DNA of 64,000 nucleotides, taken from Thermomicrobiales bacterium (lineage in GTDB: Bacteria > Chloroflexota > Chloroflexia > Thermomicrobiales > UBA6265). Shown in pieces: positions 20,449 through 58,585 of the stretch. Below the pieces are notes generated by a model, which saw nothing but the letters and a program-made list of their open reading frames with translations, was not told the DNA's origin and did no database searches. The stretch covers positions 85,551-149,550 of the forward strand of contig JAMLHN010000004.1 in assembly GCA_023957115.1 (NCBI GenBank), written 5' to 3'. Both the position numbers and the translations under genes were made by a program. How positions within the stretch are numbered: the first letter of the stretch is position 1; each line of letters starts with the position of its first letter.

Positions 20449-20559
20449 CGAAAGGGGCACCATCGCGGGCACTCTGCATTTCTCCGCCGGTTCTTGAGTT
20501 ACCCGACTGCAAACACGCGGCAAGACGTTCAAACGATTCGTTCGAAGAGGAGCGCACCT

Positions 20560-22194: not shown

Positions 22195-22206
22195 CGAGGA
22201 TTTCCG

Positions 22207-33124: not shown

Positions 33125-35305
33125 ATGCCCTACTACGGACATCGTCTTTCTTTCGGAACCCTGCTCGATCCCGTTACCGATCCGCCGGAGCGGGCGGTCG
33201 AGCTGGCGCGGCTGAGCGAATCGCTTGGCTACGACCTGGTCATGCTGCGGGACGAGCCGCACCGGCCCGATCTGCTCGACGCCTGGACCGCCCTGACCTG
33301 GATTGCCGGTCAAACCGAGCGGGTCTGGCTGGGCGCCATGGTGCAACGGTTGCACCGGCGGCTGCCGGCTGTCATCGGGCGGCAGCTTGCCAGTCTCGAT
33401 CTGCTCAGCAGCGGTCGGGCCGAGTTCGCGTTCGGCCCGGTCGAATCGTTGAACGAGGTCGAAGCGCTGGATGAGGCCATCGACATCGTGCGCGCCATTC
33501 TTGATGTGGCCGAACTGGGAACAGTGACCATCGACGGTCGCCATTTCCCGGTGATGGGCGCGCAACGCGGTCCGCTCCCCCAGCACACGATTCCCGTCTG
33601 GCTTTCGGGAAGCGCCCTGCCGGTGCTGGAGCTGGCGGGACGCACGGCGGATGGTTGGATCGGAACCGCTGCCGAGCTGCCACTGGCCAATGCGGTCATC
33701 GACTCCGCCGCGACCGCATCCGGCCGGGAGCCAAGCGAGATTTCCCGTATCGTGACCGTCCAGGCCGGCGATCCGTTACTGCCACTCGTCATCGAGCATG
33801 GCGCTGGAATCATCCTGCTCGATTCCAACGATCCGGCGGTCATCGAACGCTTTGCGCGTGAGGCGATTCCGGCGCTTCGCGTAGCGGTCGACGAGGCGCG
33901 CGCTGATCTACCAGCGGTCGTACCCGCAAAACCAGCCCGTATGCGGGCAAAACGGCGCGAGGGAATCGCGTATGACGCCATTCCGATCACGCTCCAGGCG
34001 CATGCCGTCGAACCCGGCGATGCCGCCTATGCACGGTTGCGCTCCAACTACCTACGTGGTGGATCGCCTGGATTGATCCTTCGCCCAGGCACGCCGGAGG
34101 AGGTCGCCGAGGCGATCGCCTTTGCGCGAGAGCACCGGGAGCTTCCCTTCTCGGTTCGCAGTCGCGGGCATGGGATCAGTGGTCGTTCGACCAATGACGG
34201 CGGTTTGATCGTCGATCTGCGGCTGATGAACAAGGTCGAGATTCTGGACGAGACGACCCGCCGGATCCGGGTCCAGCCGGGAGCGCGCTGGATGGATGTC
34301 GCGGCCGCGATCGAGCCATACGGTTGGGCGCTGAGCTCCGGTGACTATGGCGGGGTCGGTGTTGGCGGTTTGGCAACAGCCGGCGGGGTCGGTTGGCTGG
34401 TACGCGAGCATGGCCTGACCATCGACCACATGCGCAAGGCGCAGATCGTCTTGGCGGACGGCTCGATTCTCGAAACCAGCGAAACGGAGCGCCCCGATCT
34501 TTTCTGGGCAATCCGTGGCGCCGGAGCGAATATGGGCATCGTGACCAGCTTCGACTTCGAGGTCGATCCGATCGGTCAGGTCGGCTGGGCGCAGCTCGTG
34601 CTCGACGCCACCGATATCGCCGGATTCCTGCAAGCCTGGGGTTCCTGGATCGACAACGCGCCGCGCGATACCACCAGCTTCATGATCATGGGACAGCAGC
34701 GAAGCGCACGTCAGATGTACGCGCACGTGCTGACGGTGATCGATTCGGACGATCCGGAAACGATCGTCAGCCGGTTACAGCCACTGGCCGATGTCGCCCG
34801 CGTTCTGCAACAGCGAATCTCGATCGAGACGTATGCCGATGTCATGGCCAATGCCAGCGATCACTATCACCAGGGCCAAGGCGATCCGGCGGTGCGATCT
34901 GGACTCCTGAACCAGATCACGCCCGAGTTCGCCGAAGCCGCCAGTCGCATGATTCAGGGCGGAGGCTCGTATTTCTTCCAGATCCGCTCGATGGGCGGCG
35001 CGGTGGCCGATGTGCCGCCGGAGGCAACCGCGTTCGTCAATCGCTCGGCCAAGTTCTCGGTGGTCGCATTTGGGCCGAGCCGGTCGCGGTTGAACGCCTA
35101 CTGGAACGAGATGACCCCGCTATTCGATGGGCTCTACCTCAGCTTCGAAACCGATACCAGCCCAGAGCGGCTCCTGGACGCCTTTCCGCAACCGGCCCTG
35201 AGCAAGCTCCAGCGGTTGAAAGAACACTACGACCCAACCAATCTCTTCCGCGATAACTTCAACGTGTTGACGGGAGTTAGGAGCGAGGAGTTGGGAGTTA
35301 GGTAA
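33125..35305 (+). CDS. Fused LLM flavin oxidoreductase and FAD-linked (BBE-type) oxidase
   Basis: 726 residues, two enzymes in one chain. Residues about 1-255 are a luciferase-like barrel (SLGYDLVMLRDEP, LASLDLLSSGRAEFAFGP, IPVWLSGSALPVLELAGRTADGW). After a linker, residues about 295-715 are an FAD_binding_4/BBE oxidase: RSRGHGISGRSTNDGG gives the histidine (about 349) expected to hold FAD covalently, and DPTNLFRDNFNV is the BBE tail. The second covalent Cys of berberine-bridge enzymes is absent (GDYGGVGVGG). A MarR regulator controls it. The last ~10 residues are encoded by heptamer repeats. It could be two steps of one oxidation. Confidence 0.88.
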   Translation: MPYYGHRLSFGTLLDPVTDPPERAVELARLSESLGYDLVMLRDEPHRPDLLDAWTALTWIAGQTERVWLGAMVQRLHRRLPAVIGRQLASLDLLSSGRAEFAFGPVESLNEVEALDEAIDIVRAILDVAELGTVTIDGRHFPVMGAQRGPLPQHTIPVWLSGSALPVLELAGRTADGWIGTAAELPLANAVIDSAATASGREPSEISRIVTVQAGDPLLPLVIEHGAGIILLDSNDPAVIERFAREAIPALRVAVDEARADLPAVVPAKPARMRAKRREGIAYDAIPITLQAHAVEPGDAAYARLRSNYLRGGSPGLILRPGTPEEVAEAIAFAREHRELPFSVRSRGHGISGRSTNDGGLIVDLRLMNKVEILDETTRRIRVQPGARWMDVAAAIEPYGWALSSGDYGGVGVGGLATAGGVGWLVREHGLTIDHMRKAQIVLADGSILETSETERPDLFWAIRGAGANMGIVTSFDFEVDPIGQVGWAQLVLDATDIAGFLQAWGSWIDNAPRDTTSFMIMGQQRSARQMYAHVLTVIDSDDPETIVSRLQPLADVARVLQQRISIETYADVMANASDHYHQGQGDPAVRSGLLNQITPEFAEAASRMIQGGGSYFFQIRSMGGAVADVPPEATAFVNRSAKFSVVAFGPSRSRLNAYWNEMTPLFDGLYLSFETDTSPERLLDAFPQPALSKLQRLKEHYDPTNLFRDNFNVLTGVRSEELGVR
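35273..35302 (+). repeat. Heptamer tandem repeat GGAGTTA-type, four units
   Basis: GGAGTTA, GGAGCGA, GGAGTTG, GGAGTTA, then GG. The array forms the last codons and stop of the LLM-FAD fusion gene, so repeat DNA has been captured into the reading frame. Confidence 0.85.
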
Positions 35306-38569: not shown

Positions 38570-40537
38570 TCATCCTCCGCGCGCCACATCTCCCAAATAG
38601 TGCTCCCGGTTGAGCGGATTCGGACCGGTGCGGACGCGCTCGGGAGGAATTCCTTCGACCGGACGGTACCCAGCGTGAGCGGAAAACCAGACTCCCTCAC
38701 CGCGGGTAAGCCGGGGAAGTTGCTGCTCGATAATGCGCAGCTCATCGGTCGGGATGATGCATTCGATGCGCCGCAGATCTCCGTCGCCCGCGATCTGTTC
38801 GATGGCTCCCCGCGCGGCGGCCAACCCATTCACCACACCGGCGACCAGATCGAGCGGAAGCTCCACCTCGAGCCGCTCCACCGGTTCACAAACTACCGTT
38901 CTGGCTTGCCGCAGTGCGTCGAAGAGCGGTAATGGGGCGAGCTTGCGGAAATCGGCGGCGACCGTTACCGGCGACCAATAGGCCAGCGAATGGAGCGTGA
39001 CTACGCAATCGGTCACCTGCCAACCGTGCACCCCCTGCGGCAGCCAGTCGAAGACCGTTTCCTCGATGGCCCGATAGAACGCGGGCGGCAACGAGCCAAG
39101 CTCTCGCTCGTAGCGAATCCCGCTTCCCAGCGGGCCTGCCTCGACGCGGAAACCCAACCCTGCCGCGAATGGATTCTCCGCACTCCCGATAATCTCGACC
39201 GCTTCGCCGGAACCAGCCACCCGCTCGATGCAGATGATGCGACTCGGACCGAAGGTGGCGCGAACGTCGTAGTCGCGGAGCAACGTTTCCGCCAGCACGT
39301 CTTTCTGCACATCGCCGAAGACGGAGACCGACAGCCCGTCGTCCGTGACGCGCAACCCGATGAGTGGATCTTGCTCGGCGAGCTGGTCGAGCGCGGTGTG
39401 GAGCGCGTTTGCCTGGGCCGGATCGATTGGCGCAACGATGCTCTCGAACGATGGAGCCGGAAAGGCACGCTCGAAACGGTCCTCACGAGCGACCGGGACG
39501 CCGATCCAATCGTCGATGCGGGCGAAGCGGAGTCCGTGCACTACGGCGATCTCTCCGGCGCGGGCACGGTCGGTCACAACCGTGTTGCCCGCTTCGAAGC
39601 GGTCGACCGCCACAATGCGTTCCTCTGACTGGACTCCCGCTTCGGTTCCGTTATCCCGATACACCGTGATCCGCTGCCGGGGCGCAAGCGTGCCAGCCTC
39701 GATCCGCGCATAGGCGAGCTTTTCTCCACGATTGGTACGCGCGATCTTGAAGATGCGCGCCGCTACCGGGGCATCATCGCAGCGCTCGATCGGAACGAGC
39801 CACTGCTCGATCCCGTTCAGCAACCCGCGTACGCCCACACCGGAGCGGGCCGACCCACAGAAAAGCGGCGACACCGCACCGGAGCCGATCTGGGCACGTA
39901 GCGCAGCTCCCAGGAACCCGTCAGATAGTTCGCCGCCGGTGCGATCGAACTCCCCGATGACGCGGTCGTCCAGCTCGGCCAACTGATCGACCAACGATCT
40001 GCGCCAGACATCGTGGGACCAGTCGACGGGCTCGACGGTTACGTCTGATTCCCCTACCCCGATCGCACGGTTCAAGGGAATCACCGAGAGCTGAAGCTTG
40101 CGGCAGATATCAGTCAACACCGCATCGGGCCGGGCGCCCATACGGTCGATCTTGTTGATGAAAAGAATCAACGGGCATCCCGCCACCCGGATGGCGCGGG
40201 CAAGCTTGACTGTTTGCGGCTGCACCCCTTCGACCGCGGAAACGACCAGCACGACGGCATCGAGCACACAGAGCGAACGCCCGACCTCGGCCACGAAGTC
40301 GGCATGCCCGGGGGTGTCGATGAGATTGATCTCAAGGTCGTTCAGGTGAAAAGCGGCAACTGCCGCTTTGATCGTGATGCCGCGCGTCCGCTCGAGCTCC
40401 AGGGTATCGGTTTGGGTGGTGCCTCTATCGACACTACCTGGAGCGGCTATGACCCCAGTTTCGAAGAGGATACGTTCGGTAAGAGTCGTTTTACCGGCGT
40501 CGACATGCGCCAGGATTCCAATGGTGACGATCGCCAT
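38570..40537 (-). CDS. Tet(M)-like ribosomal protection GTPase (EF-G-related)
   Basis: 655 residues, the length of Tet(M)/Tet(O)/Otr(A) proteins. The GTPase domain has GILAHVDAGKTTLTERIL (P-loop), the RGITIKAA switch, DTPGHADF and NKID. Domains II-V follow; the diagnostic domain IV tip YWSPVTVAADFRKLAPL matches the SPV(S) loop with which Tet(M) displaces tetracycline from the decoding centre, and the C-terminus (AGYRPVEG) also fits. ATG 40537 is chosen because the conserved MAIVTIGILAHVDAGK starts there. It is likely a chromosomal homologue of intrinsic type; resistance is inferred, not shown. Confidence 0.9.
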   Translation of the reverse strand: MAIVTIGILAHVDAGKTTLTERILFETGVIAAPGSVDRGTTQTDTLELERTRGITIKAAVAAFHLNDLEINLIDTPGHADFVAEVGRSLCVLDAVVLVVSAVEGVQPQTVKLARAIRVAGCPLILFINKIDRMGARPDAVLTDICRKLQLSVIPLNRAIGVGESDVTVEPVDWSHDVWRRSLVDQLAELDDRVIGEFDRTGGELSDGFLGAALRAQIGSGAVSPLFCGSARSGVGVRGLLNGIEQWLVPIERCDDAPVAARIFKIARTNRGEKLAYARIEAGTLAPRQRITVYRDNGTEAGVQSEERIVAVDRFEAGNTVVTDRARAGEIAVVHGLRFARIDDWIGVPVAREDRFERAFPAPSFESIVAPIDPAQANALHTALDQLAEQDPLIGLRVTDDGLSVSVFGDVQKDVLAETLLRDYDVRATFGPSRIICIERVAGSGEAVEIIGSAENPFAAGLGFRVEAGPLGSGIRYERELGSLPPAFYRAIEETVFDWLPQGVHGWQVTDCVVTLHSLAYWSPVTVAADFRKLAPLPLFDALRQARTVVCEPVERLEVELPLDLVAGVVNGLAAARGAIEQIAGDGDLRRIECIIPTDELRIIEQQLPRLTRGEGVWFSAHAGYRPVEGIPPERVRTGPNPLNREHYLGDVARGG

Positions 40538-40788
40538 GCCATTCCATTTCGTCGAAGATCTTCCGGACAACTGGACTCTTCGACGATTGGCGCATTGGAA
40601 TCTCCTTCCTCAGGATCGAGCGTTGTGATGGCGACACTCGGGTGGCCGGCACGGGATGCGCAAGGGCAAACATTCGGAATTTCATTATAGAGAGCAAACG
40701 TAGGTTCCGCCATTGCTGACGGACGTTGAGGTGTAGTTCAGGTTCTAGTACGCGTGGCCTCCGAGCCTGGTCGTTGACCGCGACGTCG

Positions 40789-40884: not shown

Positions 40885-41020
40885 ACGTCTGGGTGCCCAA
40901 ACGTCCTGGCGGGCCCGGCGCTTGAGTGCGCAGCGTTCATCATGGCGCCGCTACAGCGGGCATTTACCAAAACGTGAACCGCACCCCCGCCAACAGCGTC
41001 CTTGCCTCTTTCATGGGGAT

Positions 41021-41046
41021 CATGTATCTTGGATCCAAAATACATG
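41021..41046. promoter_or_regulatory. 26-bp near-perfect palindrome, candidate GntR operator
   Basis: CATGTATCTTGGA (41021-41033) faces TCCAAAATACATG (41034-41046); 12 of 13 positions pair. It lies 25 bp upstream of the GntR start, the expected place for autoregulation of the downstream operon. Confidence 0.78.
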
Positions 41047-41070
41047 ATCAATCTATCTTGGAGCTCAGAC

Positions 41071-41730
41071 GTGCAGGCAACCACCGAGATAATGCCGGTC
41101 ACCGTTCAGACGGCGGCCACCAATCAGATCAGGCAGTGGATTCTCGATGGCAAGCTCGCCCCTGGTGAGCGGCTTCATCAGGACCAACTGGCCGAGGCGC
41201 TCAATGTCAGCCGCATGCCGGTACGCGAGGCGATCCGCCAACTGGCGTCCGAGGGGTTGGTCACCGTCGTTGCCCACCGCGGCGCGTTCGTCGCCTCGCT
41301 CGATCCTGAGGAGATCCGGGAGCTCTATCGCGTGCGTTCTGCCCTGGAATGCCTGGCGGTGCGCTATTCCGTGCCAAAGATCACCGACGAGACTGTGCAG
41401 GAGCTTGGGCGTCTGCTCGCCGATATGCGAGCGGTCGAGTCAGAGAACAAGGAAGAGGAAACGATCGAGCTGGATCGCCGGTTCCACGACCTGCTCATGG
41501 AGCCGGCGAATATGGGCTATCTCCAGGGGTTGATCCGGCAGTCACGGCAAAAATCGGAAGCGTTCCGGCGTGCCCATACCTACATTCCCGGACGCTCGCA
41601 TATCTCCAACCAGGAGCACCGGCAGATCCTGGACGCGGTGTCTCGGCGCGCTGCTCCCCTCGCAGAACAGCTCGTCGAAGAACATCTGACGAACGCCGCC
41701 AATCATCTGATCGCGTACCTGTCCAGGTAG
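41071..41730 (+). CDS. GntR-family regulator (FCD subfamily)
   Basis: About 219 residues. The winged helix (IRQWILDGKLAPGERLHQDQLAEALNVSRMPVREAIRQLASEGLV) is followed by an FCD ligand domain with metal-ligand positions in ELYRVRSALE, the RRFHDLLMEPA helix and ISNQEHRQILDAV. GTG 41071 is chosen with GGAG 7 bp upstream; the frame is open from 41002. The gene is 18 bp upstream of DppB and heads an eight-gene same-strand run, so it most likely controls uptake and breakdown of the solute imported here. FCD ligands are usually small organic acids. Confidence 0.9.
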   Translation: MQATTEIMPVTVQTAATNQIRQWILDGKLAPGERLHQDQLAEALNVSRMPVREAIRQLASEGLVTVVAHRGAFVASLDPEEIRELYRVRSALECLAVRYSVPKITDETVQELGRLLADMRAVESENKEEETIELDRRFHDLLMEPANMGYLQGLIRQSRQKSEAFRRAHTYIPGRSHISNQEHRQILDAVSRRAAPLAEQLVEEHLTNAANHLIAYLSR

Positions 41731-41748
41731 ATCGGGAGCCGTGCTGCC

Positions 41749-42699
41749 ATGCCTCGCTGGGTAGCCATCCGAATTCTGTCGACAATCCCGACGCTCGTTG
41801 GCGTCGCCATCCTCGTCTTCCTGCTGGTGCGGTTCATCCCGGGAACCGTGGTGGAGCAGATCCTCGGGGCGCAGTTCGACATCAGCCAAGGGCAGATCGA
41901 TGCCCTACGCGCCTACTTCGGACTCGACCAGCCACTCTATCGACAATTCTGGACTTGGGCGAGCGGCATCCTGCAGGGTGATTTTGGAACGTCCTGGCGG
42001 CTTGGCGTATCCGTACGCTCGCTCATCTGGTCACGTCTCCCGGTCACGCTCGAGCTCGCCTTCCTGAGTCTCATCGTCGCGCTCGCAATCGCCCTTCCCG
42101 CCGGAATCATCTCCGCGCTGCGTCGTGGAACGGCGGTCGATGCCGGCGTCCGAGCCGTTTCCCTGCTGGGCCTGTCGCTGCCGGAATTCTGGCTCGGCAC
42201 CCTGTTCGTCTTGCTTTCGTCGCGCTACTTCGGCTGGTCTCCCGCTGCCCGTTACGTCCCCTTCCGTGAGGACCCTGTGCAGAATCTGGCATCCATGGCG
42301 TTTCCAGCACTCACGCTGGGTCTCGTGCTCGCCGCGAACCTCTCTCGAATGACGCGGTCGGCCCTGCTCGATGTGATGAGCCGCGACTACATCCGCACGG
42401 CTCGCGCCAAGGGGCTCTCCGAGCACCGGGTGCTGACCCGCCATGCGTTGCGAACGGCGGTGATTCCGATCATGACCGTCGTCGGCCTTCAGGTCGGATA
42501 CCTGCTGGGCGGCGTGGTAGTCATCGAGCAGGTCTTCACGATTCCGGGTATGGGACGCCTGGCGGTCAACGCGATCCAGCAACGGGACTACCCGCTCGTC
42601 CAGGGCGTCATTCTCGTCAGCGCGCTGCTCTTCATCTTCGTCAATCTGGTCGTCGATCTGCTCTATGCCGTGCTCGATCCCCGAGCTCGCGTTCGCTAA
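41749..42699 (+). CDS. DppB-type ABC transporter permease
   Basis: 316 residues, DppB family: MPRWVAIRILSTIPTLVGVA first helix, VRFIPGTVVEQILGAQ block (PGT instead of PGDP), EAA loop RTARAKGLSEHRVLTRHALRT. It starts 18 bp after the GntR stop and ends 15 bp before the DppC start, in one operon. Confidence 0.93.
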   Translation: MPRWVAIRILSTIPTLVGVAILVFLLVRFIPGTVVEQILGAQFDISQGQIDALRAYFGLDQPLYRQFWTWASGILQGDFGTSWRLGVSVRSLIWSRLPVTLELAFLSLIVALAIALPAGIISALRRGTAVDAGVRAVSLLGLSLPEFWLGTLFVLLSSRYFGWSPAARYVPFREDPVQNLASMAFPALTLGLVLAANLSRMTRSALLDVMSRDYIRTARAKGLSEHRVLTRHALRTAVIPIMTVVGLQVGYLLGGVVVIEQVFTIPGMGRLAVNAIQQRDYPLVQGVILVSALLFIFVNLVVDLLYAVLDPRARVR

Positions 42700-42714
42700 A
42701 TGGGAGCTCGACCG

Positions 42715-43611
42715 ATGGATCTGACGCACACCCAGTCGAGTGAGATGAGCTCCGGATTCTCTGTACGGCCGCGGACTCGTTCGCGTATCGCGAGACTTTC
42801 TGCCTGGATCCGGCGCAATCCCCTGCTGTTCTTCGGGACGCTGACCCTCGTCATCCTGGTTTTCTGCGCGATTTTCGCGCCCTGGATCGCACCGTACGAT
42901 CCGCTCGGCATCGCACCCCGCGACAGTCTGAAACCTCCCAGCCGGGCGCATTGGTTCGGCACGGACCGGTATGGGCGAGACGTCTTCAGCCGGGTGCTCT
43001 ATGGCAGCCGCAACTCGCTACTCGTCGCGACAACGGCCGTCGCCATCAGCGCGTCGGTCGGCGGACTGCTCGGACTCGCGAGCGGTTACTTCGGCGGAGT
43101 ACTCGATCTCACGATCGGCCGGATCATGGACATCATCTTCAGCTTTCCGGCGCTCCTCCTCGCCATCGCAATCGCCGCAGTGCTCACGCCGGGTTCGCGC
43201 AACGCCATCATCGCCATTGCGATCGTCTATATCCCCTTGTTCTCCCGTATCGTGCGCGGCCCCACGATCGCCGAGGTGTCGCAGGAGTATGTGGAAGCCG
43301 CGCGGGTCACCGGCTCCGGAAGTGGACGCATCCTCATGCGGCATGTCGCACCCAATGTGCTTTCGCCCTGGATCGTTCAGGTCTCCGTTGCCCTCTCACA
43401 TGCCCTTCTGCTCGAAGCCGCGCTTGGATTCCTGGGACTCGGCGTTCAACCGCCGGCTCCCTCCTGGGGGCTGATGCTGAACGAAGCCAGCGACTTCATC
43501 GACGCCGCCCCATGGCTCTCGATCTTTCCCGGTCTTGCCATCGTGCTCGCCGTGCTGGCCTTCAACCTCGTCGGCGATGGCTTGCGCGACACATTGGATC
43601 CCGTTTTGTAG
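42715..43611 (+). CDS. DppC-type ABC transporter permease
   Basis: 298 residues, DppC family: basic N-terminus, first helix LFFGTLTLVILVFCAIFAPW, HWFGTDRYGRDVFSRVLYGSR and EAA region YVEAARVTGSGSGRILMRHV. ATG 42715 is preferred (GGGAG 8 bp upstream) to ATG 42700, which adjoins the DppB stop. Partner of the preceding DppB. Confidence 0.92.
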   Translation: MDLTHTQSSEMSSGFSVRPRTRSRIARLSAWIRRNPLLFFGTLTLVILVFCAIFAPWIAPYDPLGIAPRDSLKPPSRAHWFGTDRYGRDVFSRVLYGSRNSLLVATTAVAISASVGGLLGLASGYFGGVLDLTIGRIMDIIFSFPALLLAIAIAAVLTPGSRNAIIAIAIVYIPLFSRIVRGPTIAEVSQEYVEAARVTGSGSGRILMRHVAPNVLSPWIVQVSVALSHALLLEAALGFLGLGVQPPAPSWGLMLNEASDFIDAAPWLSIFPGLAIVLAVLAFNLVGDGLRDTLDPVL

Positions 43612-43708
43612 CCCCGCGTCACCGGTCCGGAGGAACCGGAGCGCGCTCTCTACCGTCGTTCAGATCGCAATCGAATCGACCGATCTCACACACAAGGAGC
43701 GCAGTTCG

Positions 43709-45292
43709 ATGATTACGCGAAGAGAACTCATTCAAGGTTCGGGCGCCGCCGCAGGCCTCGCGCTTGCGACGCGGGTCGACGGCGCATTCGCCGCCGCCGG
43801 CACCGCCGGGACGTCCCGTCTCGCCCGGGCCCAAACGCCCACAGCGGGTGGCACGCTCATCAGCGCATCGACCTCGTCCCCCACCGGGCTCGATCCGCAT
43901 TCGGTCGCGCTGCTGGCCAACTACCGGGTGACTCGGCTGATGTACAGTCCATTGGTCAATCTTTCGGCCGAGCTCGTTCCGATCCCGGCGCTGGCGGAAT
44001 CCTGGGAGATGCCGGATGACGTCACATACATCTTCCACCTGCGTTCCGGGGTGACCTTCCATAGCGGCAAGACCATGACCAGCGCCGATGTCAAGTACTC
44101 GCTCGACCGCATTCTGGACGAAGCGACCGGCGCCTGGGCCCGGGGTTCGTTCGCCAGCGTGGCTTCGGCCGAGACGCCGGACGATGCAACCTTCAAGGTC
44201 ACGTTGAGCTCCCCCTTCTCCGGGTTCATCGCCGCGATGTTCAACTTGCTGGTGGTGCCGGCCGAAATTGCCGATCAACCGGCCGACTACCTCATGACCA
44301 ATGTCGATGGCACCGGTCCCTTCATGTTGGAGAGCTGGACCCCGGATGTCGATCTCAAGCTGGTGCGGCACCCAGGCTACTGGGAAGCGGGGCTGCCGTA
44401 CCTCGACGGGGTCACGATCCGCGTCATTCCGGAAGAAAACTCGATTCTGTCCGCCCTGGAGACGGGCGAGATCGATCACTATGTGTTGGAAGACAACAAG
44501 TCCTACGCCCCACTCGAATCGGAGGGCACGCTCTCGCTGGTCACGATTCCGGCGATGGGGACGAATGTCGTCAATATCAACCATCGCAAGGAAGAGCTGC
44601 AGGACGAGCGGGTACGGCAGGCGCTCAGTCTGGCGATGAACCGTTCGGAGATCTTGCAGATCGCCGGCTCGGATGTGGGGGTCGTTTCCGGACCGATTCC
44701 CCCGACGCATCAGCTCTATTCGGTGCCCGTGGAAGAGCTGGCCTTCTATGAAACCAATATCGAGCAGGCGAAGGCGCTGCTGGCCGAAGCCGGCTATCCG
44801 GACGGCTTCTCGCTCGATATTCTCTACATCCCCACCTATCCCCTGATGGAACTCTCGGCCATCACGCTGGCCGCGCAATGGGCGGAGATCGGCATCAAGG
44901 CCGAACCGAGGTCGACCGATATCGGCGTCTGGCTCGACTTGCGGACCAAGACCTACGACTACTACATCAGCACGAATCTCGACTTCCCGACCATCGACCC
45001 CGACGTCTATCTTTTCGACACCTTCCATTCATCGAGCGCGCCGGCTCAATGGGATGCCTGGAGCGATCCGGAAATCGACGCGCTGCTCGAAGAAGGACAT
45101 GCCACGAGCGATGTCGAAGCGCGGCAGGCTATCTTTGCCGAAATCCAGAAGCTATTGGTCGAACGGTGCGCGGCCTTCTGGACCTATGCCCAGAATTTCG
45201 TCAACGTCTTGCAACCGGATGTGATGGGGTTCGTTGCCCATCCAAGCGGCTATCCACTTGGATATGACCGCGTCTGGATCGAAACTGCCTGA
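43709..45292 (+). CDS. Peptide-type ABC transporter substrate-binding protein
   Basis: 527 residues, family 5 solute-binding protein. The N-terminus MITRRELIQGSGAAAGLALA is a twin-arginine-type export signal; blocks such as LAESWEMPDDVTYIFHLRSG, VTFHSGKTMTSADVKYSLDRI and the C-terminal SDPEIDALLEEGH are typical. AAGGAG stands upstream of ATG 43709. Here the binding-protein gene follows the permeases, unlike the other sets. It delivers the substrate of the GntR-controlled operon. Confidence 0.93.
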   Translation: MITRRELIQGSGAAAGLALATRVDGAFAAAGTAGTSRLARAQTPTAGGTLISASTSSPTGLDPHSVALLANYRVTRLMYSPLVNLSAELVPIPALAESWEMPDDVTYIFHLRSGVTFHSGKTMTSADVKYSLDRILDEATGAWARGSFASVASAETPDDATFKVTLSSPFSGFIAAMFNLLVVPAEIADQPADYLMTNVDGTGPFMLESWTPDVDLKLVRHPGYWEAGLPYLDGVTIRVIPEENSILSALETGEIDHYVLEDNKSYAPLESEGTLSLVTIPAMGTNVVNINHRKEELQDERVRQALSLAMNRSEILQIAGSDVGVVSGPIPPTHQLYSVPVEELAFYETNIEQAKALLAEAGYPDGFSLDILYIPTYPLMELSAITLAAQWAEIGIKAEPRSTDIGVWLDLRTKTYDYYISTNLDFPTIDPDVYLFDTFHSSSAPAQWDAWSDPEIDALLEEGHATSDVEARQAIFAEIQKLLVERCAAFWTYAQNFVNVLQPDVMGFVAHPSGYPLGYDRVWIETA

Positions 45293-45359
45293 ACGCGACC
45301 AGGTCTCGCCCACCGTGCCGGGCGAGACCGCCACCATTCGACTTCAAGAAAGGACACCA

Positions 45360-45809
45360 ATGGGAACGCGAATTCGTTTCGAATTCGTCGACGAGGGGGT
45401 TTCCGCGGTCGCGGAGCTCGATGAGATTTCCGCACCGCGCTCGTGCGCGGCCGTGCTTGCGGCGCTTCCCCAGGAGGGAGACGCGCATCACGCAACGTAT
45501 TCCGGGAGTGAGGTGGCGTTTGTGCTGGACCGGGATCTGCACATTGGCTTGGAGAACGCAACCTCCAAGGTGATCCCCGGCGATCTCGCCTATACGCGTT
45601 TCGAAGGAGGCGTGATGTTTGGCGTTCCCGAGAGCTTTAGCGAGCTTGCCTGGTTCTACGACCGGGACGCAACGCCGAGCATGGCCGACGGTCCGGTGCC
45701 GATGAACATCATCGGCACGTTCGTCGAAGGCTTTGCCGAGTTTGCCCAGGTCTGCCGGGTGATGCGCCGCAGTGGCGTCAAGCACGTCAAGATCACGGTC
45801 GAGGAATAG
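45360..45809 (+). CDS. DUF3830-like small protein (cyclophilin-like fold)
   Basis: 149 residues, matching the uncharacterised DUF3830 type: a beta-rich protein starting TRIRFEFVDEGVSAVAELDE, with APRSCAAVLAALPQEGDAHHATYSGSEVAFVLD (the cyclophilin-like strand pattern) and ENATSKVIPGDLAYTRFEGG, then MFGVPESFSELAWFYDRD. The fold is related to small cyclophilin-like proteins and kynurenine-pathway-like lyase families. ATG 45360 follows AAAGG. It lies between a binding-protein gene and a gamma-glutamyltransferase gene with 3 bp to the latter, so a role in breakdown of the imported compound is likely, but its reaction is unknown. Confidence 0.7.
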   Translation: MGTRIRFEFVDEGVSAVAELDEISAPRSCAAVLAALPQEGDAHHATYSGSEVAFVLDRDLHIGLENATSKVIPGDLAYTRFEGGVMFGVPESFSELAWFYDRDATPSMADGPVPMNIIGTFVEGFAEFAQVCRVMRRSGVKHVKITVEE

Positions 45810-45812
45810 TCC

Positions 45813-47462
45813 ATGGCCTGGCCAAATCGGGGACTGAGTCATCGATCGGTGGCGGTTGGCGCGCGCGGTATGGTCGCCTCCGCGCATCCAGCGGCAACGC
45901 TTGCCGGCCTGCAGATGTTGCAACGTGGCGGCAATGCGGTCGACGCGATCATTGCCACCGCGGCGGCGCTCAATGTGGCCGAACCCTATATGTCCGGTAT
46001 CGGCGGGGTTGGCTATCTGCTCTCGTTTCAGGCGAGCGATCGCGCATTACGCGTGCTGAACTACAACGGCACTGCTCCCAAAGCCGCGTTTCCCGACGCC
46101 TTTCGCAACCGCCGGGAGCAAGAGCACGGTCCGAAATCGCCCATGATTCCGGCGGCAGCGGGTGGCTGGTTGACCGCCCTGGAAACGGCAGGCCGGCTCG
46201 ATCCGGCCACGGTCTTTGCCCCGGCCATCGATTTGGCCGAAACCGGCGTTCCGCTCACCCCGAAAGGGGAGTATTTCTACCGCAACTCGATCAACGGCGG
46301 TCATCTGGACGGTCCAACCAAAGCCGTCTTCTTTCCCGGGGATCGTGTCCCTCCGGCGGGTACCGTCATCCGGCAACCCAAGCTGGCGGCCACCTTTCGG
46401 GACGTCGTCGCGGGCGGGATGGACGTCTTCTACCGCGGCGCGATCGCAGACGAGATCGTACGGGCCGTACAGGCGCAAGGCGGTTTGCTCGGCGCGGACG
46501 ATCTGGCCGAGTTCCAGCCTTTTTGGCAGGAGACGATCTCCGTCGGCTATCGCGGCTATCGGGTCCATTCGGCTCCCCCACCCTGCTCCGGAATCCAGTA
46601 TCTGGAAGCGCTCGCGCTCCTGGAACCCTACGATCTCGCAGGCATGGGGCAGAACAGCCCGGAATCGATTCACCTGATCGCCGAAGCGTTCAAGCTGGCA
46701 GGGGCCGACCGAATCGCATACGCGCCCCTGGCCGCCGATTGTCCGACCGAAGATCTCCTGAGTCCTGCCTATCTCGATCGACGGCGGGAGGAGATCCAGC
46801 CGGATATGGCTGGATCGAGTCCGGGCGAACGGTTCGACGGCCGGTTGACCTCCGGAACCAGCATCACCGCGGGAGAGGTTCGGGGCAAGCACAAGGTTCC
46901 CGAATCGACCACACATTTCTGCGTCATCGACGCCGATGGCAACGCCGCCGCGATTACCCAGAGTCTGGGCGATGGATTTGGCAGCGGCGTGATGGCCGGC
47001 GAAACCGGGTTGATGCTCAACAACTTCAATTTCTGGTTCGACTCGGATCGGGAGAGTCCCAATCTGATCGGCCCCGGCAAGACGATCGAGATGTGTATGG
47101 CGCCTGCGGCGATGACCCATGCCGATGGGCGGCTCTTCGGTATGATCGGGACCCCGGGATCGTTTGGCATCGTACAAACCACCCCGCAGATGATCATGAA
47201 TCTGCTCGACCATGGCTTCAGCATCCAGGCCGCGATCGAGGCGCCCCGGTTCCGAGCCTACGAGCGGACGATTCTGGAAATGGAAGCGCGCATACCGAAG
47301 ACGACTCGGGATGAGCTGGCCCGGAAGGGTCATGAAATCCGGCTGATCGACGACTGGTCGTTCCTCGTCGGTGGCGGACAGGGCGTCATGATCGATCCAG
47401 ACACCGGGGCACGATTCGGCGGAGCCGATCCACGTCGCGACGGCGTCGCGTTGGGGTATTGA
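45813..47462 (+). CDS. Gamma-glutamyltransferase family protein (second copy)
   Basis: 549 residues of the gamma-glutamyltransferase family without a signal peptide. N-terminal GARGMVASAHPAATLAGLQMLQRGGNAVDAI is followed by the processing site ESTTHFCVIDADG with the nucleophile threonine at about 366, and GDGFGSGVMAGETGLMLNNFNFWFD of the small subunit. It starts 3 bp after the DUF3830-like gene. Only distantly similar to the copy at 9055-10725, so the two probably act on different amides. It might be a true transpeptidase or an acylase-like amidohydrolase acting on the imported solute. Confidence 0.9.
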   Translation: MAWPNRGLSHRSVAVGARGMVASAHPAATLAGLQMLQRGGNAVDAIIATAAALNVAEPYMSGIGGVGYLLSFQASDRALRVLNYNGTAPKAAFPDAFRNRREQEHGPKSPMIPAAAGGWLTALETAGRLDPATVFAPAIDLAETGVPLTPKGEYFYRNSINGGHLDGPTKAVFFPGDRVPPAGTVIRQPKLAATFRDVVAGGMDVFYRGAIADEIVRAVQAQGGLLGADDLAEFQPFWQETISVGYRGYRVHSAPPPCSGIQYLEALALLEPYDLAGMGQNSPESIHLIAEAFKLAGADRIAYAPLAADCPTEDLLSPAYLDRRREEIQPDMAGSSPGERFDGRLTSGTSITAGEVRGKHKVPESTTHFCVIDADGNAAAITQSLGDGFGSGVMAGETGLMLNNFNFWFDSDRESPNLIGPGKTIEMCMAPAAMTHADGRLFGMIGTPGSFGIVQTTPQMIMNLLDHGFSIQAAIEAPRFRAYERTILEMEARIPKTTRDELARKGHEIRLIDDWSFLVGGGQGVMIDPDTGARFGGADPRRDGVALGY

Positions 47463-47464
47463 AC

Positions 47465-48241
47465 ATGGATTCGAGCAAGAGATTCACCGGCAAGACCGCG
47501 CTCGTCACGGGAGCCGGTTCCGGGATCGGAGAAGCCATCGCCCGCCGATTTGCGGATGAGGGCGCCCAGGTCGTAGTGACCGGGGTGCACACTGAGAACA
47601 CGATGGCGGTGGTGGAATCGATTCGCGCCGCCGGCGGCGAGGCAATCGGGCGGCAATTGGACGTTAGCGATTCGGCCGCAATGACTGCCGCGGTCGCGTT
47701 TGCGGTAGAACGGTACGGCGCGCTCGACATCATGGTCGCCAATGCCGGTCTGGCCGGGTCGTCCGCGTATCTCGGCCCGTTGATCGACGTCAGCGACGAC
47801 GACTGGCAGCGCATCATCGATGTCAACCTGACCGGAGTTTTCTACTCCGCACGCGAAGCGGCCAAGGTCATGATTCCTCGCGGTCAGGGTTGCATCATCA
47901 CCATCGGCTCGGTCAACAGCTTTGTGCCGGAGGGCGATGTCCCCGCCTATGCCGCCGCCAAAGGCGGGGTCTTGCTGCTGACCCGCAGCCTTGGCCGGGA
48001 TCTCGGTCCGTTCGGTATCCGGGTCAATGGCATCGCACCCGGCGCCACGGAGACGCCGCGTCTTTCGCGCACGATTGCCGCGCATGGCCGCAACTGGGAG
48101 GAGATCGGAGCGTCGATCCCCGTGCGACGGCACGCCGCCGCGTCCGAGATCGCCTCGGTGGCGGCGTTTCTGGCGTCCGACGACGCGAGCTACGTGCAAG
48201 GGGAGATGATCGTGGTCGATGGAGGGATGCTCTGCACATGA
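47465..48241 (+). CDS. SDR-family NAD(P)-dependent oxidoreductase
   Basis: 258 residues of the classical short-chain dehydrogenase family. TALVTGAGSGIGEAIARRFADEG is the TGxxxGIG cofactor motif, VANAGLAG the NAG motif, the catalytic Ser is in IGSVNSF and Tyr/Lys in PAYAAAKGG. ATG 47465 starts 2 bp after the GGT stop; the stop overlaps the next gene by 4 bases. It likely oxidises or reduces a hydroxyl group of the substrate processed by this operon. Confidence 0.93.
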   Translation: MDSSKRFTGKTALVTGAGSGIGEAIARRFADEGAQVVVTGVHTENTMAVVESIRAAGGEAIGRQLDVSDSAAMTAAVAFAVERYGALDIMVANAGLAGSSAYLGPLIDVSDDDWQRIIDVNLTGVFYSAREAAKVMIPRGQGCIITIGSVNSFVPEGDVPAYAAAKGGVLLLTRSLGRDLGPFGIRVNGIAPGATETPRLSRTIAAHGRNWEEIGASIPVRRHAAASEIASVAAFLASDDASYVQGEMIVVDGGMLCT

Positions 48242-49479
48242 GCACGTCGAGTACCTGGCACGTTGGATGCCGGGTTTGCGACTGGCGCGGCGCACCCGGG
48301 CTTTATCCCCATGGTTGTCCGATCTGCCTGGAACGGGGGGAGGTTCAGGCGGTCGTCGTCGAACCGCCCCGGCAGCCAAACCCGAATCCACGTACCGGCA
48401 CGGGGCGCGGCATCTGGAACCGGTGGGGCAACTGGCTTCCCGCCGTTCCGGCTGAGCACCGGCGTTCCCTGGGCGAGGGGGACAGTCCGTTGCTGCGCGT
48501 CGATTGGCTCTCGGAGGTCACTGGTTGCGCCGAGGTCTATCTCAAGATGGAAGCAACCAACCCGACCGCGGCGCATAAGGACCGCTTCCATGCAGTCTCG
48601 ACCGCGGTGGCCGCGTCGCTTGGTATGCGCGGAGTCTTCTCCTCATCGACCGGGAACCATGGATTGTCGATGACCGCCTATGCCCGGCTGCATGGCCTGG
48701 AATCGGTCGTGATCAGCAATCCGCGCATGCCAGCACTGCTGCAACGAGCGATCCGATTCGCCGGCGGGGTTCCGTTCATGGTCGATTCGGAGGTCGGCGC
48801 CGCAATCGCCGCCGATCTGGTCGCCACCGGCGAATGGCTGCCCGCTTCGACCCTCTGGCCAATGCCGATCGGCAGCCCATACGGCGCGGAGGGGTACAAA
48901 ACCATCGCCTGGGAGATCGCCGAAGAACTGGCGACCCCGCCCGCCTGGATCCTGATACCGACCGCGGGAGCCGATCTGTTGACCGGCATCTGGTTGGGAT
49001 ACGAGGATCTGGCGCGGATGGGAACAATCGAGCATCTGCCCCGACTCTGCGCTTGCCAGCCTGCCGGCGCGGCTCCGCTGGTCCAGACGCTCCGGAGCGG
49101 GAAGACGACGATCGAGCGACTGGACCATGCCTACTCCATCGCACTTTCGATTGCCGATCCGATCACCGGGCAAATCGCGATGGACGCCCTGGCCGCCACC
49201 GATGGCGACGCCGTAGCGGTTTCGGATGCGGAGATTCTGGCAATGGGCGAGCTACTGGCGCGTCACGGGCTGCTGGTCGAACCTTCGTCAGCCGCATCGG
49301 TCGCCTCACTCTCCCATCTGGCCGAACGTCATCCGGAAATGCGCGATCGACCCGTCGTCTGCATCATCACTTCATCGGCCCTGAAATGGCTGGACGATTA
49401 CGGCGCCGCGGCCGCCGGGGCCGGTATTCCGGTCGATACTCTCGATGACGCATGGGGGGTGATCGACGCGCGGTCGTAA
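48238..49479 (+). CDS. PLP-dependent enzyme, threonine synthase-like, with N-terminal zinc ribbon
   Basis: 413 residues. The N-terminus has two CxxC pairs (VGCRVCDWRG and HGCPICLERG, Cys 11, 14, 27, 30), a zinc-ribbon-like module as in some threonine synthases. The fold type II barrel follows: NPTAAHKDRF with the PLP lysine at about 114, SSSTGNHGLSMTAYARLHGL binding the phosphate, and late SSALKWLDDY. The start overlaps the SDR stop. Threonine synthase itself normally sits in amino-acid biosynthesis operons, so here a dehydratase or lyase acting on a substituted amino acid is more likely. Confidence 0.87.
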   Translation: MSTSSTWHVGCRVCDWRGAPGLYPHGCPICLERGEVQAVVVEPPRQPNPNPRTGTGRGIWNRWGNWLPAVPAEHRRSLGEGDSPLLRVDWLSEVTGCAEVYLKMEATNPTAAHKDRFHAVSTAVAASLGMRGVFSSSTGNHGLSMTAYARLHGLESVVISNPRMPALLQRAIRFAGGVPFMVDSEVGAAIAADLVATGEWLPASTLWPMPIGSPYGAEGYKTIAWEIAEELATPPAWILIPTAGADLLTGIWLGYEDLARMGTIEHLPRLCACQPAGAAPLVQTLRSGKTTIERLDHAYSIALSIADPITGQIAMDALAATDGDAVAVSDAEILAMGELLARHGLLVEPSSAASVASLSHLAERHPEMRDRPVVCIITSSALKWLDDYGAAAAGAGIPVDTLDDAWGVIDARS

Positions 49480-49576: not shown

Positions 49577-49762
49577 GTGGGAAGAACGGCTCCTGACGCA
49601 TCCATTCTTGTACGGCGTGCACAGTCCACGAGACTGACAAACGGCAATACACAGATTGCTCACCAATTGCCTTGACCGCCCATCGGTTACCGCCTACAGT
49701 GTCGCCTAACTCCACGGGAGCAAATGGACAACGGCGCGATTTGCGTAGGGAGGAACAACCGA

Positions 49763-51568
49763 ATGTCGGAACAGCATGCAGTGCAACAGCTTGCCTGGGA
49801 GATTTCCACGGGCCGGCTGAATCGTCGAGATCTCTTCAAGCGCGCAGCGGCGCTGGGAATCTCGGCATCGGTGCTCGGCAGCATCATGACCAAGAGTGTC
49901 GTACCGGCACTCGCGCAGGATCTGGCAGAGGTCCCGCGGGAAGACACGCTCATTGCCGTTCGCGGCGGGACCCAGGGCAAATTCACCGAAGGCGATCTCC
50001 TCTGGAATCCCTACCTCCCACTGGCCAACCATCAGTTGGCCGTGCAAATGGTCTACGAACCCCTTGCGGTCTATAGCGCGTTCACCGATACCTTCACCTA
50101 TTGGCTGGCCGAGAGTCACGAGTACAACGAGGACTACTCGCAGCTGACGGTCAAGACTCGCCCGAACGTCTCCTGGAGCGACGGCACGCCCTTCACCGCC
50201 GAAGACGTCGCCTGGACCTTCAACCAGTTGGTCGAGGTCGGACCGGCCGTGAAGTTCGGTGCGGACGTGCAGATCTCGCTGCAAGAGGCAACGGCCACCG
50301 ACGACACCACCGTCGTCTTCGATTTCATCGAATCAGCCCCGCGCTTCTTCGAGTTCATCTCCTACAAGTTCGATATCGGCTGTTTCATCGTGCCGAAGCA
50401 CATCTTCGAGAACGAGGACTTCACCTCCTACGCCGCGTACGATCCGGTGACGACCGCTCCCTGGAAAGTGGTCTATTCCGCGCCGGAGCAGAAGGTGCTC
50501 GACCGGCTCGACTCGTGGTGGGGCGTCGACGCCGGAGTTGGCAAGCTCCCCGAACCGCTCCGCTATATCTTCCTGCCGGATCCAGGCGAGCAGAATCTCG
50601 CCGCCGGCGTGATCTCCAACCAGTACGACATCTCCACCGGTATCCAGCCGACCACCTTCGAAACCGTCTTCAACGGAAACGACCAAACCACCACCTGGAG
50701 CGGCAAGGACGTGCCGTTCGGCAATATCGACTGGTGGCCGCACTCGCTGTATGTGAACAATACGGTCGAACCATGGAGCGATCCCAACGTCCGCTGGGCG
50801 CTCAGTTACTACATCGACCGAGATCAGATCATCGAGTTCGGCTGGAACGGCGCGAGTCTGCCATCCACCCTCTTCGTGCCCGACTACCCCGGTCTGCAAC
50901 CATTCATGGAAGCAGTCGAGCCGATGTTCGAGCAGTATCCCTATCTGGAATACAACCCGGAAAAGGGCGACGCGCTGCTCGAGGCCAAGGGTTGGACCAA
51001 GGACGGTGACAACTGGAAGGACGAAGCCGGGAACGATGTCTCCCTCGAGATCATGAGCTTCTTCGACTTCACCTCGGTCGGTCCGGTGGTGGTCGAGCAG
51101 CTGAAACGTGCCGGCATCGATGCCACCTACTCCGAGCCGCCCGACTTCTTCACCCGTTTCTATGCTGGTGACTACACAGGCGCCCTCTTCGGACACGGCG
51201 GAAGCTACAGCTCGGACATCTACTACTCGATGCGGCTCTACCAGAGCGCCTCGACCGAGATTCCGGGTGGTCACCTGGCCAACTTCTCACTTTGGAAGAA
51301 TTCCGACTACGACGCGCTGGTGGACCAGCTCTATACCACCAGCCCGTCCGATATGGAGGCAACGATCGAGATCTGGAAGCAGGGCATGGAGCTCTGGTTG
51401 CCGGACTACCCGGACATCCAGCTCACCCAGGGTATTCACCGCCTGCCGATGAACCAGACCTACTGGACCGGTTGGCCGACCCAGGACGATCCGTATATCA
51501 ACCCGGCGCACTTCCACCTGACCTTCCAGATGGTCATGCACCGGCTCTCGAAGGCCGCAGCCTCGTAG
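49763..51568 (+). CDS. Peptide-type ABC transporter substrate-binding protein
   Basis: 601 residues, family 5 solute-binding protein with a twin-arginine-like signal (RLNRRDLFKRAAALGISASV). Blocks include VSWSDGTPFTAEDVAWTFNQL, the WWPHSLYVNNTVEPWSDPNVR strand and a C-terminal Trp/Tyr-rich ligand-binding region (NQTYWTGWPTQDDPYINPAH) that suggests carbohydrate or oligosaccharide binding, as in cello-oligosaccharide-type members. GGGAGG precedes ATG 49763. Permeases follow at 51817 and 52825. Confidence 0.93.
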   Translation: MSEQHAVQQLAWEISTGRLNRRDLFKRAAALGISASVLGSIMTKSVVPALAQDLAEVPREDTLIAVRGGTQGKFTEGDLLWNPYLPLANHQLAVQMVYEPLAVYSAFTDTFTYWLAESHEYNEDYSQLTVKTRPNVSWSDGTPFTAEDVAWTFNQLVEVGPAVKFGADVQISLQEATATDDTTVVFDFIESAPRFFEFISYKFDIGCFIVPKHIFENEDFTSYAAYDPVTTAPWKVVYSAPEQKVLDRLDSWWGVDAGVGKLPEPLRYIFLPDPGEQNLAAGVISNQYDISTGIQPTTFETVFNGNDQTTTWSGKDVPFGNIDWWPHSLYVNNTVEPWSDPNVRWALSYYIDRDQIIEFGWNGASLPSTLFVPDYPGLQPFMEAVEPMFEQYPYLEYNPEKGDALLEAKGWTKDGDNWKDEAGNDVSLEIMSFFDFTSVGPVVVEQLKRAGIDATYSEPPDFFTRFYAGDYTGALFGHGGSYSSDIYYSMRLYQSASTEIPGGHLANFSLWKNSDYDALVDQLYTTSPSDMEATIEIWKQGMELWLPDYPDIQLTQGIHRLPMNQTYWTGWPTQDDPYINPAHFHLTFQMVMHRLSKAAAS

Positions 51569-51654
51569 AAGTTGGGGAGTTCACGGAATGCGGAGAGCGC
51601 GAATCGTGCTCTCCGCAAACCCGAACGGAAGCTCGGCTTTGCGTCACTCCACGA

Positions 51655-51746
51655 AGAGAGATCCTTCACTTCGTTCAGGATGACAACAGGCAAAACGCCT
51701 CAACCCACCGCATTGTCATGCTGCGCAACGCGAAGAATCTCGCTCG
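51655..51746. repeat. Dispersed repeat core, inverted pair
   Basis: The core seen in copies A and B recurs here in both orientations: 51655-51686 reads GAGATCCTTCACTTCGTTCAGGATGACAA-like on the plus strand and 51713-51746 reads TTGTCATGCTGCGCAACGCGAAGAATCTC-like in the other orientation. It lies between the binding-protein and permease genes, 25-110 bp before the DppB start. Confidence 0.75.
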
Positions 51747-51816
51747 TTCCGGCCCACACGAATTGTCTCGGTAAGCAGATACGTTCTCTCGCAAACATCC
51801 CTAGCAGGTATCGGTC

Positions 51817-52821
51817 ATGACCCTTTCCTATGCCCTGAAACGTATCGGCATGTTCCTCCTCGTCGTCTGGCTGGCGGCGACCGTGAACTTCTTCCTCCCC
51901 CGGCTTGGAGGGGGCGATCCGGTTCGCCAGAAGATGATGCAAACCGCGGCCCTGGGCGGAAACGTGCAGGGCGGCATGGACGAGGTGGTAGCCGAGTACA
52001 ACAAGAAATTCGGCCTCGATACCCCCCTCTGGCAACAATACGTCAACTACCTTTGGGATCTGCTCCACTTCGATTTCAATTATTCGATTGCAAATTACCC
52101 GGCCCGCGTGATCGACATCATCGGCCACTCCCTTCCCTGGACGGTCGGATTGCTCCTGACGGCAACCCTCATTTCCTGGATCATCGGGAGCATTCTGGGC
52201 GCCTTTATGGGCTGGCCACGTTCGCCGAAGTTCCTCGCGTTCGTGATGCCGCCGCTGCTCTCGTTGAACGCAATTCCGTTCTTCCTTTTGGGTCTAATCC
52301 TGATCTATCTCTTTGCGTTCCGGTTTCCCTGGTTCCCGACAACCGGCGGGTATTACGCGGGGACCTTTCCAGACTGGTCGCTGGAGTTTGCCTGGAATGT
52401 GTTCAAGCATTCGGTGCTCCCTGCCCTGTCGATCATTCTGGTCTCCATTGGCGGTTGGGCATTGACCATGCGGTCGGTGATCATCACCACGACCGGAGAA
52501 GATTATGTCACCTTCGCCGATGCCAAGGGGCTCAAGAACCGGACCATCTTCATGCGCTATGCGGTACGCAACGCGCTCCTGCCCCAGGCTACGGCGCTCG
52601 CCCTGGTGCTCGGGCAGATCATCGCCGGAACGGTCCTCGTGGAGGTCATCTTCTCCTACCCCGGTATCGGCACCACCCTCTACTACGCCATCCGGGGTTC
52701 CGACTACACCCTCATCCAGGGCATCGTCTTCTTCCTCATCCTTTCCATTGCACTGGCCACGCTGATTCTCGACCTGCTCTATCCGTTCATCGATCCGCGC
52801 ATTACCTATACAAAGGCGTAA
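51817..52821 (+). CDS. DppB-type ABC transporter permease (carbohydrate-type)
   Basis: 334 residues, DppB family: MTLSYALKRIGMFLLVVWLAATVNFFLPR first helix, EAA loop TFADAKGLKNRTIFMRYAVRN. It is longer than the other DppB proteins in the window and has the FRFPWFPTTGGYYAGTF insertion typical of the cello-oligosaccharide-type branch. Preceded by the binding-protein gene and followed by DppC with 3 bp spacing. Confidence 0.92.
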   Translation: MTLSYALKRIGMFLLVVWLAATVNFFLPRLGGGDPVRQKMMQTAALGGNVQGGMDEVVAEYNKKFGLDTPLWQQYVNYLWDLLHFDFNYSIANYPARVIDIIGHSLPWTVGLLLTATLISWIIGSILGAFMGWPRSPKFLAFVMPPLLSLNAIPFFLLGLILIYLFAFRFPWFPTTGGYYAGTFPDWSLEFAWNVFKHSVLPALSIILVSIGGWALTMRSVIITTTGEDYVTFADAKGLKNRTIFMRYAVRNALLPQATALALVLGQIIAGTVLVEVIFSYPGIGTTLYYAIRGSDYTLIQGIVFFLILSIALATLILDLLYPFIDPRITYTKA

Positions 52822-52824
52822 TCC

Positions 52825-53751
52825 GTGAGTCTTGTCGTCGGTCAGCAGACCGCTCCCACCACTGTTCCCGCTTCAGCTCCCACGCCTGTACACGTGGGGC
52901 GTGCTGCCCGGTCCTGGGGCTATCTGCGCCGCAACCGATCGCTGCTCGTCGGGGTCACATTGCTGGCCGGGCTGGCGCTGTTTGTGATCATCGGACACCT
53001 GACCGTCGATGTGCGCGATTCGGCGCCCATGTCCACCGGTAGTCTGAAACACCCCTCGACTGCGCTTCCGTTTGGAAGCGACAAGCAGGGCCGCAACCTC
53101 TATGCCGTCATGGTGGAAGGCACGCCGCTCACCCTGCGGCTCGGCTTGATCGCCGGGTTCATCGGATTGATGATCGGGGCAATCGTTGGTTTCCTGGCGG
53201 GGTACTACGGTGGCTGGGTGGACGCTATTCTGCGTGTGATCATCGATGTCGGGCTCACCATTCCAGCATTGCTGATCCTCATCATTCTGGCCATGCGATC
53301 GCAAGCCGGCATGACGGTCGATCAGATGACCTTTGCCATCTCCTGCCTGGCCTGGCTCTATCCGGCGCGCATCGTTCGCGCTCAGGTGTTGACGCTGAAA
53401 GAGCGCGGCTACGTGCAAATTGCCAAGCTCTCCGGTATGACCGGGCGTGAAGTCATCGTGAAAGAGCTCTTGCCGAACCTGCTCCCCTATCTGGTCGCCG
53501 GACTGGTCGGCTCGATCTCGGCAGCCGTGCTGGCGGCAATCGGATTGGAAATGCTCGGGCTCGGACCGTTCGAAGCGCCGACCCTGGGCATGACCCTCTA
53601 TTGGGTTAACTACAACGCGGCCATCATCAACGGCTGGTGGTGGTGGTGGTTGCCACCCATCATCATCATCGCGATGCTCTTTACCGGGCTTTTCCTGACC
53701 GCCGTCGGACTGGACGAGCTGGCGAATCCGCGGCTGCGCAATCGGGTGTAA
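52825..53751 (+). CDS. DppC-type ABC transporter permease
   Basis: 308 residues, GTG start. DppC family: N-terminal basic cytoplasmic part, first helix LLVGVTLLAGLALFVIIGHL, PFGSDKQGRNLYAVMVEGTP block (variant of GTDxxGRD), EAA region YVQIAKLSGMTGREVIVKELLPN. A Trp-rich stretch NGWWWWWLPPIIIIAML lies in the penultimate helix. Completes the fifth importer. Confidence 0.92.
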   Translation: MSLVVGQQTAPTTVPASAPTPVHVGRAARSWGYLRRNRSLLVGVTLLAGLALFVIIGHLTVDVRDSAPMSTGSLKHPSTALPFGSDKQGRNLYAVMVEGTPLTLRLGLIAGFIGLMIGAIVGFLAGYYGGWVDAILRVIIDVGLTIPALLILIILAMRSQAGMTVDQMTFAISCLAWLYPARIVRAQVLTLKERGYVQIAKLSGMTGREVIVKELLPNLLPYLVAGLVGSISAAVLAAIGLEMLGLGPFEAPTLGMTLYWVNYNAAIINGWWWWWLPPIIIIAMLFTGLFLTAVGLDELANPRLRNRV

Positions 53752-57471: not shown

Positions 57472-57480
57472 CGTCCTCCT

Positions 57481-58482: not shown

Positions 58483-58585
58483 CGTTGGTGTCCTTTGCGT
58501 TCCCGCCGGTCCACGCGTGGACCGGTGCGAGTGTGTTGTACCTGGCATGCGTTGCCGGAATTCGGTGACAGGGAGAATCATAGCC

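Follow-up and report, generated by a model that had tools for sequence, protein, structure and literature searches.

A probable import and catabolism operon with an atypical GGT-family hydrolase in a Thermomicrobiales genome

What compound is taken up and broken down by the products of the eight adjoining genes found at positions 41071-49479 of a 64 kb stretch of the draft genome (4.26 Mb, 89 contigs) of a Thermomicrobiales bacterium? An earlier note on this stretch, which is called the window below, had read the genes as an operon under the control of a GntR-family regulator for the uptake and degradation of a gamma-glutamyl-type compound. The first half of that reading is borne out: the locus is best read as a GntR/FCD-regulated operon combining import and catabolism, and its core is conserved in a cassette of a distant genome. 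As for the compound itself, we put at about 0.6 the probability that the operon imports and hydrolyses a peptide-like amide, with an N-acyl amino acid or an unusual dipeptide as the likeliest candidates, and that it is built from interchangeable modules.

Organisation of the operon

All eight genes lie on the + strand and belong to the families named in the earlier note, the assignments being secure with Pfam scores far above the cut-offs. The first encodes a GntR-family regulator with an FCD ligand domain (gntR, 41071-41730; GntR 72 bits, FCD 95.5 bits) and starts with GTG preceded by GGAG. It is followed by the genes for a DppB-type permease (41749-42699; BPD_transp_1, 139 bits), a DppC-type permease (42700-43611; BPD_transp_1 and OppC_N) and a family 5 solute-binding protein (SBP; sbp, 43709-45292; SBP_bac_5, 278 bits). 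The second half of the operon encodes a DUF3830 protein of an importer-linked type that we call type B (45360-45809; PF12903, 98.6 bits against a cut-off of 26), an N-terminal nucleophile hydrolase of the GGT family belonging to what we call the D433W branch (ggt, 45813-47462; G_glu_transpept, PF01019, 404 bits against 27, full length), a short-chain dehydrogenase/reductase (SDR; sdr, 47465-48241; adh_short_C2, 221 bits, with a PRK07231-type subfamily model of NCBIfam also above its cut-off) and a fold-type II pyridoxal phosphate (PLP) enzyme resembling ThrC (plp, 48238-49479; PALP, 182 bits). Stop-to-start distances are 18 bp (gntR-dppB), 0 (dppB-dppC), 97 bp (dppC-sbp), 67 bp (sbp-DUF3830), 3 bp (DUF3830-ggt) and 2 bp (ggt-sdr), and sdr and plp overlap by 4 bp (ATGA). 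The spacing of mostly 2-20 bp proposed earlier therefore describes most junctions but not the two gaps of 97 and 67 bp, and of the two overlaps proposed with it that of sdr and plp is certain and the other uncertain.

A 32-bp palindrome, GATCATGTATCTTGGATCCAAAATACATGATC, lies at 41018-41049 (unstranded), 21 bp upstream of the gntR start. This inverted repeat (GATCATGTATCTTGGA followed by TCCAAAATACATGATC) is 94% complementary and has no spacer. When up to 3 mismatches are allowed, its 24-bp core is found in one place only in the 4.26-Mb genome, and 0 matches are expected in shuffles of the window. As its place and form fit those of an autoregulatory FCD-GntR operator, it is probably the operator of the regulator, a prediction made from sequence. 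No palindrome was found ahead of gntR in the related loci L248, L128 and L129. Short inverted repeats at the gntR genes of L250 and L130 were considered as the same operator and set aside, as they bear no resemblance to the palindrome of the window.

A core cassette in a distant genome

An orthologous core cassette (GntR-DppBC-SBP-DUF3830-SDR) is present in G328, a distant Chloroflexota genome, at locus L248. Its products share 60% (DppB), 63% over 240 aa (DppC), 51% (SBP), about 50% (DUF3830), 45% (SDR) and 33% (GntR) identity with those of the window. The closest relative of the window DUF3830 protein is the copy in this cassette, and no SBP other than that of L248 is more than 39% identical to the window SBP among about 530 Chloroflexota genomes. 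The arrangement differs, as DUF3830 and gntR of G328 are divergent from dppB, dppC, sbp, an amidohydrolase gene and sdr, and the amidohydrolase stands where the window operon has ggt and plp. This comparison suggests that the conserved unit consists of the importer, DUF3830 and SDR, together with an exchangeable hydrolase. The cassettes of these two distant Chloroflexota genomes share a binding protein and differ in their hydrolases.

The GGT-family protein

When mapped on the GGT of Escherichia coli, the window protein keeps the nucleophile (Thr366, T391 in E. coli), which is invariant in 102 of 102 relatives. Residues R114, N411, Q430, D433, S462 and S463, which hold the gamma-glutamyl group (PMC8062742), are replaced by N, G, F, W, M and C, respectively. 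Of the two glycines (GXXGG; G483 and G484) that serve the oxyanion (PMC8062742), the first is kept and the second is S. Among the 102 relatives, position 411 is G in 99, position 433 is W in 92 and position 484 is S in 95. The window protein is therefore like the E. coli and Bacillus licheniformis enzymes in its full-length family match, its nucleophile and its first oxyanion glycine, and unlike them at the seven other positions, in its lack of an apparent N-terminal signal peptide and in its location within an importer operon. It scores 325 bits with the equivalog model TIGR00066, below the cut-off of 358. The N-terminal sequence MAWxNxGLAHRP is common to members of the branch, and as no signal peptide is apparent by eye, hydrolysis is probably intracellular. 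The gamma-glutamyl substrate proposed in the earlier note is not supported, as the contacts for both the alpha-amino and the alpha-carboxyl group of the glutamyl moiety are replaced and an amidohydrolase occupies the same slot in G328.

The best solved relative (2NLZ, 2e-73) is a Bacillus halodurans 'cephalosporin acylase' of the class IV type, 'acylase' being in this comparison a database name only. D433 is replaced in this protein too: at positions 114, 411, 430, 433, 462, 463, 483 and 484 it has S/Y/R/N/H/T/G/G, and the window protein N/G/F/W/M/C/G/S.

In a FastTree tree, which was sampled by similarity to the window protein and includes only six outgroup sequences, every Trp433-bearing sequence falls in one group (100 tips, 93 of them with Trp, support 0.99). 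This D433W branch ranges over Poribacteria, Latescibacterota, Planctomycetota, Gemmatimonadota, Rokubacteria, Nitrospinota and several Chloroflexota lineages. At least 378 relatives were confirmed. GGT relatives on plasmids are at most 39% identical and were left out of the comparison. The branch is a large and probably misannotated part of the GGT family. We suggest, tentatively and with the odds somewhat against it, that it represents a widespread family of intracellular amidohydrolases of new specificity, some members of which act on N-acyl amino acids or dipeptides brought in by importers of the Dpp type, and that type B DUF3830 is a dedicated partner of importer-linked catabolic operons. 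If true, many GGT-family matches in little-studied bacteria do something else. The branch and the importer-linked type of DUF3830 are what is new here. Our literature search found no paper combining GGT with either oxamate amidohydrolase or D-cysteate.

The genome contains eight GGT-family matches. One of them, a second GGT-family gene of the window (9058-10752, within the stretch 5602-10752 of the - strand), adjoins a DppC/DppB/SBP cassette; its product has S for R114 and C for D433 and falls outside the D433W branch.

The PLP enzyme

The product of plp shares with threonine synthase the fold-type II family and the motif of the Schiff-base lysine (Lys114, in the KDR motif of AHKDR), its best solved relatives being 2d1f and 2zsj, and its N-terminus carries a zinc-ribbon-like CxxC...CxxC. 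The threonine synthase models of NCBIfam all score below their cut-offs (best 173 against 303). The motif NPxRxEGQKT, which we take to hold the substrate phosphate in threonine synthase, reads SPYGAEGYKT in the operon enzyme, and the residues binding O-phosphohomoserine, presumably N154, S155 and R160 of the Thermus thermophilus enzyme, are replaced by P, I and G. In L266, another ThrC-like protein encoded by this genome, both the motif (NPFRLEGQKT) and N/S/R at the three sites are retained. Since L266 has the motif intact, the operon enzyme is probably not the housekeeping threonine synthase. Relatives of its subgroup at L128-L130 adjoin M24, creatininase, enolase-superfamily, FAD oxidase, GntR and Dpp genes.

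The importer

Of the components of a dipeptide or oligopeptide ATP-binding cassette (ABC) importer, the operon encodes an SBP_5 protein and two permeases but no ABC ATPase. Candidates for the latter are the closest DppD/DppF-type genes seen, which lie about 7 kb downstream (56416-58638) on the opposite strand. The SBP starts with a twin-arginine-like sequence (MITRRELIQG), and its best solved relative is AgaA (6hlx, 1.3e-48). Five Dpp-type cassettes are found in the window (1736-3778, 5602-8886, 20494-24053, 41749-45292 and 49760-53751), and the gene pair at 56416-58638 is the one DppD/DppF-type ATPase pair identified.

Related loci and alternative readings

In three other families of the order, genomes carry the GGT gene next to a gene for a PLP enzyme of the CuyA/D-cysteine desulfhydrase type. 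Of these loci, L113, L114 and L116 also carry SBP-DppBC, L115 has a fragment only and L118 is cut by the contig end. In Rokubacteria, the GGT gene follows SBP-DppB-DppC in six loci. DppB, DppC or SBP genes lie within 6 kb of 17 of the 99 GGT loci, and DppB/C genes in 1 of 38 control loci, but these counts of related loci include related genomes and are not independent. No PLP gene occurs in the 562 kb of control loci, which hence provide no chance rate for PLP genes near GGT genes. In L211 and L213, which belong to another Chloroflexota lineage, a GGT-family gene is divergent from a threonine-dehydratase-like PLP gene and is flanked on its other side by an SDR gene.

The dependence of these counts is one of several points that weigh against the reading of the operon as a route for a peptide-like amide. 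The NCBIfam models for permeases and SBPs all score below their cut-offs. Some extremophile GGTs are described as gamma-glutamyl enzymes even though R114 and both serines are missing from them (PMC8062742), and the D445A variant of Bacillus subtilis GGT retains 40% of hydrolysis (PMC8062742), so that the loss of contact residues would not strictly exclude gamma-glutamyl hydrolysis. The trio of DUF3830, GGT and PLP genes is not conserved in the genomes searched. Its co-occurrence, the absence of which from other genomes the earlier note had named as counter-evidence, is seen nowhere else, and DUF3830 lies near none (0/99) of the other loci of the D433W branch and its near relatives. Among the 158 genomes of the class, 44 of which have DUF3830, the PLP subgroup is near DUF3830 in the window and at L038 alone (where it adjoins M24 and DUF3830). 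GGT genes adjoin PLP enzymes of other subfamilies.

Given this lack of conservation, the steps of the GGT and PLP enzymes may be unrelated additions. The locus would then be a mosaic in which the core (GntR-DppBC-SBP-DUF3830-SDR) serves one compound, with ggt and plp as later insertions acting on others. The core without these two genes in G328, and the occurrence of each of them elsewhere in other settings, would be expected of such a mosaic. We nevertheless consider it unlikely, as DUF3830, ggt, sdr and plp are tied together by their close succession (gaps of 3 and 2 bp, then an overlap of 4 bp), and GGT-branch genes recur beside PLP enzymes and Dpp genes in other families.

More doubtful still is a gamma-glutamyl substrate from which the GGT-family protein removes glutamate. 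Six contacts have been lost together, D433 (now W) among them, the replacements are conserved across a branch of several phyla, and the G328 cassette has an amidohydrolase in the GGT slot; these points outweigh, in our view, the family membership of the protein (404 bits with Pfam; 325 against 358 with TIGR00066), its retained nucleophile Thr and the precedent of the extremophile enzymes. General scavenging of mixed short peptides, with loose specificity and no defined pathway, would suit the five Dpp-type cassettes of the window and the eight GGT-family matches of the genome, but is very improbable given the dedicated regulator, which has a palindrome of its own, and the presence of two unusual enzymes instead of ordinary peptidases.

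DUF3830

The DUF3830 family splits into two types, and the window protein belongs to type B. An ABC importer lies within 6 kb of 15 of the 18 type B loci (from about ten lineages, with three tandem copies in L075 counted singly), against 1 of 43 type A loci. Type B also has genes of arylmalonate decarboxylase-like, amidase and aminotransferase proteins as neighbours (L249, L250). DUF3830 is probably a soluble, cyclophilin-like accessory protein that goes with import cassettes and not with GGT; if so, the family would gain a testable setting in importer-linked catabolism. The orthologue in L248 matches PF04126 barely above the cut-off (28.7 bits against 27). The solved relative of the window protein (3kop, residues 9-145, 3.6e-10) is a homologous DUF3830 protein, neither of the two having a known function. 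The neighbourhoods of the 43 type A loci were examined as a link to GGT and discarded, as they lack relatives of the window GGT and nearly all lack an importer. A single-sequence structure model of the window protein was unusable (predicted local distance difference test score of 35).

In a plasmid collection the DUF3830 protein of the window has no match and the DUF3830 protein of L038 has two, both rhizobial. No paper found in the literature search mentions DUF3830 or PF12903. The three tandem copies of L075 (genome G135, 9175-12202) adjoin a GntR-DppBC-SBP cassette.

A proposed pathway

The gene content, the palindrome, the loss of the contacts for gamma-glutamyl and phosphohomoserine groups and the conserved core cassette are observed. 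The order of steps, the location of the hydrolase, the class of substrate and the role of DUF3830 that we infer from them would combine as follows. The family 5 SBP and DppBC would import a small peptide-like amide, using ATPases encoded elsewhere, with DUF3830 as an accessory protein of the import cassette. The GGT-family protein would autoprocess at Thr366 inside the cell and hydrolyse an amide bond other than a gamma-glutamyl one. The amino acid set free probably has a side chain with a hydroxyl or another leaving group. The ThrC-like PLP enzyme could form a 2-oxo acid from it by elimination or deamination, and the SDR would oxidise a hydroxyl.

Other features of the window

The gap between sbp and DUF3830 contains a strong hairpin (45302-45329, + strand; -25.5 kcal/mol, z = -3.4) that has a 10-bp stem and no T run. 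A hairpin after a binding-protein gene is a common arrangement, and this one is possibly a stabiliser of the upstream sbp message. Terminator-like sites in the operon region are fewer than the shuffle mean, and the sole promoter-like match of the region, at 49672, is downstream of the operon and ahead of the next sbp gene.

Upstream of the operon, a gene on the - strand (38570-40570) encodes a GTPase resembling tetracycline-resistance ribosomal protection proteins. As its score with the Otr(A) model (589 bits) is below the cut-off of 900, we regard it as a relative and do not call it a resistance protein. Further upstream, on the + strand (33125-35302), a gene encodes a 726-aa fusion of a luciferase-like monooxygenase domain and a FAD_binding_4 oxidase domain.

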